Notes under the pieces: model-generated
The model's database searches: none
Told to the model about the DNA's origin: nothing
What the model saw: the letters and a program-made list of their open reading frames with translations, nothing else
Translations under genes and position numbers: made by a program
Source: an unidentified bacterial endosymbiont
GTDB lineage: Bacteria > Pseudomonadota > Gammaproteobacteria > Enterobacterales > Enterobacteriaceae
Reading direction: 5' to 3'
DNA length: 64,000 bases
Assembly (NCBI RefSeq): GCF_918797525.1
Contig: NZ_OU963893.1
Span: forward strand, 744,001 to 808,000
Shown: positions 20,364-29,995 of the stretch, in pieces
Layout of the letters: each line of letters opens with the position of its first letter
Position numbering within the stretch: the stretch's first letter is position 1

Positions 20364-20383
20364 CAAACGGCCCAGTATGGGGG

Positions 20384-20754
20384 TATCCTGGAATGCTGAC
20401 GGCGGCGGTATGTGGCGAACTGTTTGCCTCACCGAGCGTCGACGCGGTGCTCAATGCGATTGTGGCCGTGACGGGTGATCGGGGCTGCCTGCTGGTGGTG
20501 AAAAATTACACCGGCGACCGGCTGAACTTCGGCCTGGCGGCAGAGAAGGCTAAGCGCTACGGGCTGAAGGTCGAGATGGTGATTGTGGCGGACGATATTG
20601 CCCTGCCGGACAACAAACAGGCGCTGAGGCAACGGCGAAAATGGTGAAAGCCGGGGCGGGGCGTTCATCATATGTGAATAAAGAGAATCTGGACGGGGTG
20701 ATGGATCCGGGGGTGGTTGCGGTGGCGGAAGTATTTACTATATTGGCGCAGTAG
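20384..20754 (+). pseudogene. Remnant of single-chain dihydroxyacetone kinase (DhaK/DhaL)
   Basis: Two pieces of an ATP-dependent dihydroxyacetone kinase remain. From about 20390 to 20626, GMLTAAVCGELFASPSVDAV through DDIALPDNKQ matches the N-terminal DhaK domain near residues 75-155 of the Citrobacter-type enzyme. After a frame change near 20630, AGAGRSSYVNKENLDGVMDP and AVAEVFTILAQ with a stop at 20752-20754 match the extreme C-terminus of the DhaL domain. The first roughly 70 residues and about 370 internal residues are missing, so the gene is dead. It lies at the edge of the relocated ahr-lptG block. Confidence 0.82.
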
Positions 20755-20762
20755 AAAAGTAG

Positions 20763-20790
20763 GCCGGGTAAGGCGAAGCCGCCACCCGGC
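20763..20790. repeat. REP-like extragenic palindrome
   Basis: GCCGGGTAAGGCGAAGCC followed by GCCACCCGGC, the typical enterobacterial REP sequence. It lies between the kinase remnant and the 3' end of ahr. Confidence 0.85.
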
Positions 20791-20799
20791 ACATTCACG

Positions 20800-21819
20800 T
20801 TAAAAATCCGCTTTTAGCACCACGCGGTAACGGGCTTTGCCGTCTCGCACGTGCTGGAGCGCTTCGTTGATTTTCGACATCGGATACAGCTCGGTGGTTG
20901 GCGTTACTTTAGTGCGTCCGGCAAACTTCATCAGCTTGCGCAACTCGAATGGCGTACCGGTTGCAGAGCCGGATACGCTGCGATCGCCGCCGATCAGGGT
21001 AAACGCCGGAACCGGCAGCGGCTTCAGTACCGCACCCACGGTGTGGAAATTACCGCCATAGGCCAGCGCTTCAAAGTACGGCTGCCAGTCGAGATCGACG
21101 TTGACGGTGTTGATGATCAGATCGAACTGACCCGCAAGAGCGTTCAGGGCCTGCGGATCGCGGCTGTTCACCACTTTATCTGCACCCATCGCCAGCACTT
21201 CTTGCTCTTTCGCCGGGTTCGAACTGAACGCGGTAACTTCGCAGCCCATGGCGTGGAGCAGTTTGATGGCAATATGTCCCAGACCGCCAATACCAATCAC
21301 GCCCACGCGGCTGGTGGCGGTGACATGGTGCATCAGCAGCGGTTTAAAGACGGTGATCCCACCGCAAAGCAGCGGGCCTGCGGATTCAATACCAATGCTG
21401 TCCGGCAGCGGGATAACCCATTGCCAGTCGGCACGCAGTTTATCGGCGAAACCACCCTTGTTCAGGATGGTGGGGACGGAGCCTTCAAGGCAGTTGATCT
21501 GGTTGCCGCTGATACAGGCATCGCAATGACCACAGCTACGCGCCGTCCAGCCAATGCCCACACGCTGGCCGATCTTCAGCCCTTTATCCTGCGCGGCGCT
21601 ACCGAGCGCCACAACGTGACCGATAACTTCGTGTCCGGCAACCAACGGATACTGTGAGAAACCCCATTCGTTGTCGATCATCGACAGATCGGAGTGGCAA
21701 ATTCCGCAGTAATCGACCTTTACTTCGACGTCTTCTGCTTTTAAATCGCCTGCATCGTACTCGTACAGTTCAAGTTCTGCACCCGCCTGCGGTGCGGCGT
21801 AGCTTTTTATCTTCGACAT
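20800..21819 (-). CDS. ahr: NADPH-dependent aldehyde reductase Ahr (YjgB)
   Basis: Zinc-dependent medium-chain alcohol dehydrogenase family member (339 residues, same as E. coli) that reduces a broad range of aldehydes with NADPH. The catalytic zinc site CGICHSDL (about 38-45) with GHEVIGHV (about 62-69), the structural zinc cysteines [15 protein letters not shown] (about 96-110) and the nucleotide fold GIGGLGHIA (about 176-184) are all intact. In E. coli ahr maps near leuX at 96 min; here it lies beside yjgM between yhcC and arcB. Confidence 0.95.
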
Positions 21820-21901
21820 CGTATTTCCCCGTTATGGTGTGAACAGAAAGTGTAGAGCATTCAGTTTACAGACGCTTAACAGAAGACGGCAGGAACACGT
21901 T

Positions 21902-27411: not shown

Positions 27412-27677
27412 GCACTACGCTCCTGAATCTTAAAGACAACGGCGGCGGCTACGGATAGAATTGAAACCTTTCGTAACTCATGTCCGCGGTTGTGGTGACT
27501 TCATGTTAATCTTACGTTATTACAGTTTCGACACGTCAGAAAATGTCCTGAAGCGTGAATCCGCTGGGTGTTTTAATCTTAGCGATGATTTCGACGATTC
27601 AAGAGAATAAATGACCTTTAAGCCATGAAACAAGCAATATTCCAGCAACGAGACGGGTTTTTACGGGCGTATTTAAA

Positions 27678-28778
27678 GTGATAATCATAAGATATCTGGT
27701 GCGAGAGACGCTCAAAAGCCAGCTGGCGATCCTCTTTATCCTGCTGCTGATTTTCTTCTGTCAGAAGCTGGTCAGGATCCTTGGTGCGGCCGTTGACGGC
27801 GAAATTCCAACAAATCTGGTGCTTTCCCTGCTTGGATTAGGGATCCCGGAAATGGCACAGCTTATTCTGCCGCTGAGCCTTTTCCTCGGCCTGCTCATGA
27901 CGCTGGGAAGGCTTTATACCGAAAGTGAAATCACGGTGATGCACGCCTGCGGCTTGAGCAAAGCCGTGCTGCTGAAAGCGGCGATGGTGCTGGCGCTGTT
28001 TACCGGTATTGTGGCTGCGGTGAATGTGATGTGGGCTGGCCCAATGTCTTCCCGACATCAGGATGAAGTGTTGGCTGAAGCCAAAGCAAACCCCGGCCTG
28101 GCGGCGTTAGCGCAAGGTCAATTCCAGCAGGCCACCGACGGCAACTCCGTGCTGTTTATCGAGAGCGTCGACGGCAGCAGATTTAACGATGTCTTCCTTG
28201 CGCAGTTGCGCACCAAAGGGAATGCTCGCCCGTCGGTGGTAGTGGCAGACTCCGGCCAGCTTGCCCAGCGTAAAGATGGTTCCCAGATAGTGACGCTGAA
28301 TAAAGGGACCCGCTTTGAAGGCACCGCGATGCTGCGCGACTTCCGTATTACCGATTTCCAGAATTATCAGGCCATTATTGGTCATCAGACCGTCGCGCTG
28401 GATCCCACGGATACCGAGCAGATGGACATGCGCACCCTGTGGAATACCGATACCGACAGAGCGCGGGCCGAGTTCCACTGGCGCCTCACGCTTGTATTCA
28501 CCGTATTTATGATGGCACTGATTGTTGTTCCGCTGAGCGTGGTCAACCCGCGTCAGGGGCGCGTACTGTCAATGCTGCCAGCGATGCTGCTTTACCTGGT
28601 GTATTTCCTGCTGCAAACCTCGATTCGCTCTAACGGCGGCAAAGGCAAGCTGGATCCGATGATCTGGACGTGGTCAGTCAACTTTTTGTACATCCTGCTG
28701 GCGCTGGGATTAAACCTGTGGGATACGGTGCTAGTACGTCGCATTCGTGCCAGATTATCGCGTAAAGGAGCGTTGTAA
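27678..28778 (+). CDS. lptF: LPS export permease LptF
   Basis: One of two permease subunits of the LptB2FG ABC transporter that extracts lipopolysaccharide from the inner membrane. It has 366 residues with the usual six membrane helices (three near each end) flanking a periplasmic beta-jellyroll domain (about 125-265). The opening MIIIRYLVRETLKSQLAILF matches E. coli. Its last base overlaps the lptG start. The ATPase lptB is also in this window, at 37.5 kb. Confidence 0.97.
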   Translation: MIIIRYLVRETLKSQLAILFILLLIFFCQKLVRILGAAVDGEIPTNLVLSLLGLGIPEMAQLILPLSLFLGLLMTLGRLYTESEITVMHACGLSKAVLLKAAMVLALFTGIVAAVNVMWAGPMSSRHQDEVLAEAKANPGLAALAQGQFQQATDGNSVLFIESVDGSRFNDVFLAQLRTKGNARPSVVVADSGQLAQRKDGSQIVTLNKGTRFEGTAMLRDFRITDFQNYQAIIGHQTVALDPTDTEQMDMRTLWNTDTDRARAEFHWRLTLVFTVFMMALIVVPLSVVNPRQGRVLSMLPAMLLYLVYFLLQTSIRSNGGKGKLDPMIWTWSVNFLYILLALGLNLWDTVLVRRIRARLSRKGAL

Positions 28779-29860
28779 TGCAGGCGTTTGGCGTTCTTGA
28801 CCGCTACATCGGTAAAACTATTTTCTCCACTATCATGATGACGCTGTTCATGCTGGTGTCACTCTCGGGCATTATCAAATTTGTCGATCAGCTGAAAAAG
28901 GCCGGGCAGGGGAGTTACGACGCGCTGGGTGCAGGCATGTATACCCTGCTCAGCGTGCCGAAAGATGTACAGATCTTCTTCCCTATGGCGGCCCTGCTGG
29001 GCGCGTTGCTTGGGCTGGGGATGCTGGCACAGCGCAGTGAACTGGTGGTCATGCAGGCATCGGGCTTTACCCGTGTGCAGGTTGCGCTCTCGGTGATGAA
29101 AACGGCAATTCCGCTGGTGTTGCTGACTATGGCGATTGGCGAGTGGGTGGCTCCGCAAGGCGAGCAGATGGCGCGTAACTATCGTGCCCAGGCCATGTTC
29201 GGCGGCTCATTGCTCTCTACCCAGCAAGGGTTATGGGCAAAGGATGGTAACAGTTTCGTCTACATTGAGCGTGTAAAAGGTGACGATGAGCTGGGCGGCA
29301 TCAGTATCTATACCTTTAATGACGAACGGCGTTTACTGTCTGTCCGTCATGCTTCCTCGGCGAAGTTCGATGCCGATAACCGACAGTGGCGTCTGTCGCA
29401 GGTTGATGAATCTGTCCTGAAAGACCCGAAACAAATTACGGGTTCCCAGACCGTTTCAGGCACATGGAAGACTAACCTTACGCCGGACAAACTGGGCGTA
29501 GTGGCGCTGGATCCGGATGCGCTCTCCATCACCGGCTTGCACAGCTATGTGAAATACCTCAAGTCGAGCGGGCAGGATGCCGGGCGTTATCAGCTCAATA
29601 TGTGGAGCAAGATTTTCCAGCCCTTATCCGTAGCGGTAATGATGCTAATGGCCCTGTCATTTATCTTCGGCCCGTTGCGTAGCGTGCCGATGGGGGTACG
29701 CGTTGTCACCGGTATCAGCTTCGGCTTTGTGTTCTACGTCCTCGATCAGATTTTCGGACCGCTGACGCTGGTGTACGGCATTCCGCCATTTATCGGTGCG
29801 TTGCTGCCGAGCGCCACCTTCTTCCTGATCAGCCTCTGGCTGCTTCTGAAACGCTCCTGA
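28778..29860 (+). CDS. lptG: LPS export permease LptG
   Basis: Partner permease of LptF (360 residues), with the same layout of three plus three membrane helices around a periplasmic jellyroll domain. It begins MQAFGVLDRYIGKTIF and overlaps lptF by one base, so the two are cotranslated. In E. coli the idn gluconate genes follow; here the next gene is arcB, the right edge of the rearranged block. Confidence 0.97.
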   Translation: MQAFGVLDRYIGKTIFSTIMMTLFMLVSLSGIIKFVDQLKKAGQGSYDALGAGMYTLLSVPKDVQIFFPMAALLGALLGLGMLAQRSELVVMQASGFTRVQVALSVMKTAIPLVLLTMAIGEWVAPQGEQMARNYRAQAMFGGSLLSTQQGLWAKDGNSFVYIERVKGDDELGGISIYTFNDERRLLSVRHASSAKFDADNRQWRLSQVDESVLKDPKQITGSQTVSGTWKTNLTPDKLGVVALDPDALSITGLHSYVKYLKSSGQDAGRYQLNMWSKIFQPLSVAVMMLMALSFIFGPLRSVPMGVRVVTGISFGFVFYVLDQIFGPLTLVYGIPPFIGALLPSATFFLISLWLLLKRS

Positions 29861-29870
29861 TTGCCCTCTC

Positions 29871-29897
29871 CTCGCTACCGGTTCGCCGGGAGCGAGG
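29871..29897 (+). terminator. Hairpin after lptG
   Basis: CTCGCT-CCGG...CCGG-AGCGAG is a stable stem just after the lptG stop, without a T-tract. It is probably the transcript end and lies close to the inferred right breakpoint of the relocated block. Confidence 0.45.
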
Positions 29898-29995
29898 CTA
29901 ATCTCCTGTTTCACCCCGCACTTTTTCTCACAACCTTCAACGCCTCGCCACGATTTTGAGTATTATTGAGCGATAACGTCGTGAAGGGATCCTCT

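Follow-up and report, generated by a model that had tools for sequence, protein, structure and literature searches.

Relocation of the rraB-leuX interval into the yhcC-arcB gap of Enterobacter and related genera, probably by two inversions around oriC

The stretch of DNA analysed here (the window) comprises 64,000 nucleotides of an Enterobacteriaceae chromosome (G000:C1:744001-808000; closed, one contig of 4,762,943 bases, 4.76 Mb). In it a block of seven genes, ahr(-)-yjgM(-)-valS(-)-holC(-)-pepA(-)-lptF(+)-lptG(+), is located between yhcC and arcB, which are neighbors in E. coli. Two successive inversions spanning oriC, in the common ancestor of Enterobacter, Pseudenterobacter, Leclercia, Lelliottia and Huaxiibacter, probably moved the interval between rraB and leuX, to which these genes belong in E. 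coli, onto the other replichore, roughly to the mirror position with respect to the replication origin. The resulting arrangement is normal for the Enterobacter group, where it is fixed and clade-wide, and it is old rather than strain-specific. That there were two inversions rather than an excised circle, in what order they occurred and what their molecular cause was are matters that we infer.

The relocated block, its junctions and its former site

The E. coli donor locus reads rraB-yjgM-yjgN-valS-holC-pepA-lptF-lptG-yjgR-ahr-leuX. Four adjacencies were broken in the relocation (yhcC/arcB, lptG/yjgR, rraB/yjgM and ahr/leuX) and four were made (lptG-arcB, yhcC-yjgR, ahr-yjgM and rraB-leuX, the last with a 243-aa open reading frame (ORF) within it). 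An earlier note on this DNA (the original prediction) had named the genes of the block with their order and strands, and our check of the names against NCBIfam agrees with it, although yjgM held only weakly, as a GNAT acetyltransferase. The permuted order that it reported, with ahr beside yjgM, is likewise real when set against the E. coli reference order. Coordinates and strands in the window are as follows.

19422..20363, +, yhcC (NCBIfam TIGR01212, tRNA-modification radical SAM protein), the left flank
20343..20379, -, first junction, yhcC tail-to-tail with the 3' end of yjgR, the sole yjgR remnant (the BLAST match runs to L167:3185, 37 bases of yjgR)
20390..20755, +, remnant of dhaK (glycerone kinase), deleted internally at about 20624 (87.7% to L167:5002-5236, homology again from L167:6292)
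20760..20790, -, palindromic repeat resembling repetitive extragenic palindromic (REP) elements, just 3' of ahr and away from the primary breakpoints (pattern scan)
20800..21819, -, ahr (NF047908, NADPH-dependent aldehyde reductase)
21820..21901, no strand, second junction, ahr joined to yjgM (at opposite block ends in E. coli)
21902..22420, -, yjgM (GNAT acetyltransferase; the E. coli neighbor yjgN is absent here)
22528..25383, -, valS (NCBIfam)
25383..25826, -, holC (NCBIfam)
25900..27411, -, pepA (NCBIfam)
27678..28778, +, lptF (NCBIfam)
28778..29860, +, lptG (NCBIfam)
29861..29915, no strand, third junction, where the lptG end meets the 5' boundary of the conserved region upstream of arcB (alignment of arcB upstream regions)
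29916..32329, +, arcB, including the conserved region upstream of it (the ORF starts with the ATG at 29996)

The junction between lptG and arcB is contiguous in all 35 same-genus genomes found in a search of 60 relatives. Among named lptG loci (the best 80 of 385), arcB directly follows lptG in 21, which belong to Enterobacter, Pseudenterobacter timonensis, Leclercia, Lelliottia, Huaxiibacter and one other member of the Enterobacteriaceae. In the remaining 59 arcB was not seen after lptG, with L128, which ends 0.2 kb past lptG, being uninformative. Four of the loci lacking the junction (L125, L129, L131 and L147) are labelled Enterobacter and fall outside the clade in our third tree. The original prediction had taken the order for a new move, a reading that does not survive the comparison with close relatives: all of the genus group has this order, the outcome that the prediction itself had named as refuting.

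The donor site is empty. At G000:C1:4342899-4346382 the order is leuX, the 243-aa ORF, rraB and argI, and the same empty order was found in all 27 same-genus genomes tested (this one included), although as three adjacent pieces in G028. A whole-genome search of G000 returned one full match to the block and 11 short repeat-like ones, so that the block is single-copy; both a second valS-lptG copy and an emptied donor site were points that the original prediction had proposed to check. The 243-aa ORF between leuX and rraB (L165 3223-3954) matches no NCBIfam family, and its DNA was matched in 27 of 27 clade genomes tested.

Six relatives (L166-L171) carry a longer insert, yhcC-yjgR(-)-dhaK(+)-ahr-yjgM-valS, with lptG-arcB following wherever the locus reaches far enough; the moved segment was therefore originally the whole rraB-leuX interval, from yjgM to ahr, opened at lptG/yjgR. 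A tail-to-tail overlap of 21-24 bp links yhcC and yjgR in all six. In L167, and likewise in the window, the 3' end of yjgR is read in antisense as the last codons of yhcC, which places the cut within those codons. On the other side, homology among arcB upstream regions starts near CCGCA-TTTTT, about 80 bp before the ATG, so that this much of the original upstream sequence stayed with arcB.

The stretch 20364-20799 is not plain spacer but a scar made up of a yjgR remnant (37 bp), a dhaK remnant (about 370 bp) and one REP-like repeat. Relative to L167, whose intact dhaK is named by NCBIfam, the window lacks 1.82 kb that covers most of yjgR together with the dhaK start, and a further 1.06 kb inside dhaK. 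Alignment to this relative indicates that yjgR and most of dhaK were lost later, in the window's species, by two deletions. The 31-base REP pattern occurs in the window, L167 and L169, more weakly in L199, and not in the eleven other loci scanned. We rejected REP-mediated recombination, as the one exact REP of the window sits 3' of ahr and off the primary cuts.

Several smaller features accompany the block and its relatives. In L170 (G022) transposase-like ORFs are present between dhaK and ahr (12714-13903) and two ORFs between yjgM and valS, and L073 has a yjgN-like ORF between yjgM and valS. Rfam matches were obtained to the Ysr276 antisense RNA inside pepA (26659-26853) and to the ArcZ small RNA after arcB (32334-32442).

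Proposed inversions around the origin and competing explanations

We propose that both inversions would have been large and would have spanned oriC, with endpoints only about 4-9 kb apart. The first would have cut yhcC/arcB and lptG/yjgR and joined lptG to arcB and yhcC to yjgR; the second would have cut rraB/yjgM and ahr/leuX, joined ahr to yjgM and rraB to leuX, and returned the origin region to its old orientation. Genes moved in this way would keep their rough distance from oriC and their leading- or lagging-strand orientation. The likeliest cause is, at a guess, end-joining or template switching between two replication forks standing at mirror positions, after which selection on origin orientation or replichore balance may have favored the return inversion. 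Traced from the orders in E. coli and relatives, the scheme would yield all gene strands as observed. Both reciprocal joins of the first inversion, lptG-arcB and yhcC-yjgR, are present in relatives, and the order yhcC-yjgR-dhaK-ahr-yjgM kept in the six loci is as the first inversion predicts. No rRNA (ribosomal RNA) was found by Rfam between 12000 and 36000 of the window, and no transposase-like ORF was seen at the primary junctions, where no dedicated search for insertion sequences (IS) was run and for which no ancestral genome was searched for repeats.

Positions relative to the origin, marked by mnmG (with sequence lengths approximated for G273 and G345), are consistent with this scheme. 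In outgroup genomes arcB is 484-642 kb and lptG 501-696 kb from mnmG, and the two are on opposite arms in 21 of 26, with a median mismatch among the 21 of 45 kb (range 1-146). The mismatch is 1 kb in G135 and 24 kb in G293, which together with L147 make up the group closest to the clade in the tree. If two sites were random, opposite arms and a mismatch of at most 45 kb would be expected together about 2% of the time. Within the clade, block and empty donor are on opposite sides in 18 of 19 genomes (median mismatch over the 19, 40 kb). The orientation of lptG was also kept, as it is co-directional with replication both in G143, which has the old order, and in G000. The trees left out 4 of 80 loci (first), 5 of 88 (second) and 3 of 102 (third); we used the third, which has more genomes and places G293 beside L147 and G158 elsewhere, whereas the second had placed G158 beside L147.

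A number of observations weigh against two inversions. In five of the 26 outgroups (G167, G273, G345, G086 and G193) arcB and lptG share an arm; three of these (G167, G273 and G086) belong with G158 and G124 to a distant group in the tree, and G345, of the same genus as G167, is unplaced in it. Because the outgroups share ancestry, their symmetry is close to a single observation, and the placement of L147-G293-G135 as sister of the clade has a support of only 0.747. G013 has both sites on one side, and the mismatch in the window's own genome is 162 kb. No single-inversion intermediate was found in the clade (lptG-arcB in 35 of 35 same-genus genomes, empty donor in 27 of 27 tested). That two inversions spanning about 1.1 Mb should have endpoints no more than 10 kb apart is a strong demand, and for Yersinia Darling et al. 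2008 (PMC2483231) saw no surplus of near-reversions. The ahr/leuX cut borders a transfer RNA (tRNA) gene used by integrating elements. Lastly, gene order alone does not separate two inversions from one excised circle.

In G167, G133, G078 and G086 and their congeners, a distance of 70-126 kb separates lptG from arcB, both being on one contig and one strand, and yhcC-arcB is intact in these four. Their order reflects further rearrangements between the arms via other breakpoints.

The original prediction held that the permuted order would result from a circle opened between lptG and ahr. Relocation with circular permutation stands, but the circle itself is not needed, as two oriC-spanning inversions give the same four adjacencies. 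In its strongest form this alternative, which we consider unlikely, has the rraB-leuX interval excised as a circle that closed ahr to yjgM, opened at lptG/yjgR and was reinserted between yhcC and arcB. It has economy on its side, one excision and one insertion sufficing for the same four junctions. leuX is an integration site for elements, and a tyrosine-recombinase-like gene, below family cut-offs, adjoins it at the emptied donor site of G000 (L165 1874-2881). Yet a circle predicts neither a landing site near the mirror position nor the kept replication orientation, nor does it predict the simple inversions at yhcC/arcB and the reciprocal L131/L098 swap in other lineages described below. At the target, no tRNA was found and no integrase-like ORF was seen by reading, although attachment (att) repeats were not searched for; the only tRNA found in the window is at 63.8 kb. 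The near-mirror position and the inversions at the same cut in other lineages favor inversions.

Selection may alternatively have placed lptFG beside lptBAC, the move being kept because it clusters genes of lipopolysaccharide transport. In its favor, lptG ends 7.6 kb before lptB, where the original prediction had put lptFG within 8-10 kb of lptB, lptA and lptC. Nevertheless, lptFG and lptBAC are on opposite strands with arcB to rpoN in between, valS, holC, pepA, yjgR, dhaK and ahr traveled along with lptFG, and in L131/L098 the neighborhood is rearranged with lptFG and lptBAC on different contigs. On the co-traveling genes and the L131/L098 layout we rejected clustering as the driver of the move, and regard it as very improbable. 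A chimeric assembly, the main alternative in the original prediction, is excluded by the lptG-arcB junction in 35 of 35 same-genus genomes and 21 named loci, the single copy of the block and the empty donor, and nothing was seen that speaks for it.

Repeated breakage between yhcC and arcB

We surveyed the yhcC-arcB gap in 74 chosen genomes, about one per genus. In 56 genomes the two genes adjoin or have no more than about 0.5 kb between them, in four they are separated by inserts of about 0.7-4.7 kb, and in four they are apart; the other ten, in which only arcB matched, could not be scored. The four genomes with the genes apart represent three lineages. In the first (L147/G356) the orders are yhcC-mscM and epmA-arcB. 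In the second (genus g81) yhcC adjoins ppa in G115, and arcB is beside ytfP-tamB in both G115 and G241; in G241 the distance from mnmG is 581 kb for tamB and 633 kb for ppa, which are on opposite arms. In the third (L131/L098; G352/G353) one locus reads yhcC-[glucosaminidase-like gene, below the family cut-off]-argI-rraB-miaE-npr and the other mgtA-arcB-elbB-mtgA-yjgM-valS. Judged from these orders, yhcC/arcB was paired in simple inversions with 94-96-min sites (epmA-mscM and ytfP-ppa) in the first two lineages, and the third has a reciprocal swap of arcB-elbB-mtgA and argI-rraB, which again requires two nested inversions. This swap was seen at L131 and L195-L198 (G352, G353); in L131, ridA-pyrI-pyrB is in a new place, after dhaK.

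A single ancestral break underlying all four lineages was discarded. The clade keeps mscM..epmA and ppa..ytfP-tamB collinear in five of five genomes tested (with ppa-ytfP inserts of 1.8 kb in G031, 4.1 kb in G030 and 10 kb in G004), and nearer relatives of the first and third lineages keep yhcC-arcB (G135 and G199, the latter from the genus of L147's sister G293, near the first; G100 and G354, beside L131/L098, near the third). The tree sets the clade and each of the three lineages apart, and two of the lineages have such relatives beside them; we therefore count four independent cuts of yhcC/arcB, that of the clade included. Accessory genes are inserted between yhcC and arcB in G101, G120 and G155 (L219-L221), with uxuA-like ORFs (about 40%) in two.

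As a control, about 20 kb on either side was read in 40 of the 74 genomes, picked after the survey for similarity and including every broken one (contigs were short in G201, G131 and G121). Gene order was collinear apart from accessory inserts, with the paralogues degS and degQ swapping names in two genomes, and the only other clear inversion break was mtgA/npr in the third lineage. Nothing expected was read upstream of gltD or nanA in G121, G155 and G068, or after murA in G124. The mtgA/npr gap, besides its break in G352/G353, has repeated 4-8 kb inserts before npr or yrbL in G078, G130, G153 and G155. If breaks fell at random, at least three of four further ones would hit one given gap with P = 0.004, 0.002 or 0.0005 for 10, 13 or 20 gaps, the gap number being our choice. 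Since the survey was aimed at this gap, the clustering of breaks there is suggestive only. It is possible, and we put this forward tentatively, that fork-to-fork inversions in Enterobacteriaceae have repeatedly ended in the short stretch from yhcC to the arcB promoter (four independent lineages), arising without IS or rRNA repeats. In many cases an almost exact return inversion would have followed, and blocks including essential genes would in this way shuttle between replichores at constant distance from oriC.

Relation to known rearrangements

The rearrangement is fixed and of a known kind, and the recurrent cut is its interesting part. The junctions of an ancient transfer of housekeeping genes between replichores are mapped here within tens of bases, and the arrangement is usable as a shared marker for the Enterobacter-Leclercia-Lelliottia group. 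The idea that paired forks give rise to inversions becomes directly testable through the repeated use of a single gap whose partners are on the other arm.

In the 'flip-flop around the origin' model, reportedly from Mackiewicz et al. in 2001, repeated inversions carry genes across the origin at constant distance; the present case differs in being gene-level, in that its junctions are mapped and one of its cuts recurs. A chromosomal circle, excised and reinserted, would give the same permuted order but does not predict the mirror position.

The Yersinia inversions described by Darling et al. 2008 (PMC2483231) offer a close comparison. There, IS elements or rRNA genes are found in all but one breakpoint region, whereas none was seen at the cuts described here, where no dedicated IS search was made. 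Near-reversions, not in excess there, would be needed in two lineages here. Symmetric inversions are an over-represented class in Yersinia, and the events around yhcC/arcB resemble these origin-symmetric inversions in that endpoints are about equidistant from oriC on opposite replichores and breakpoints are reused.

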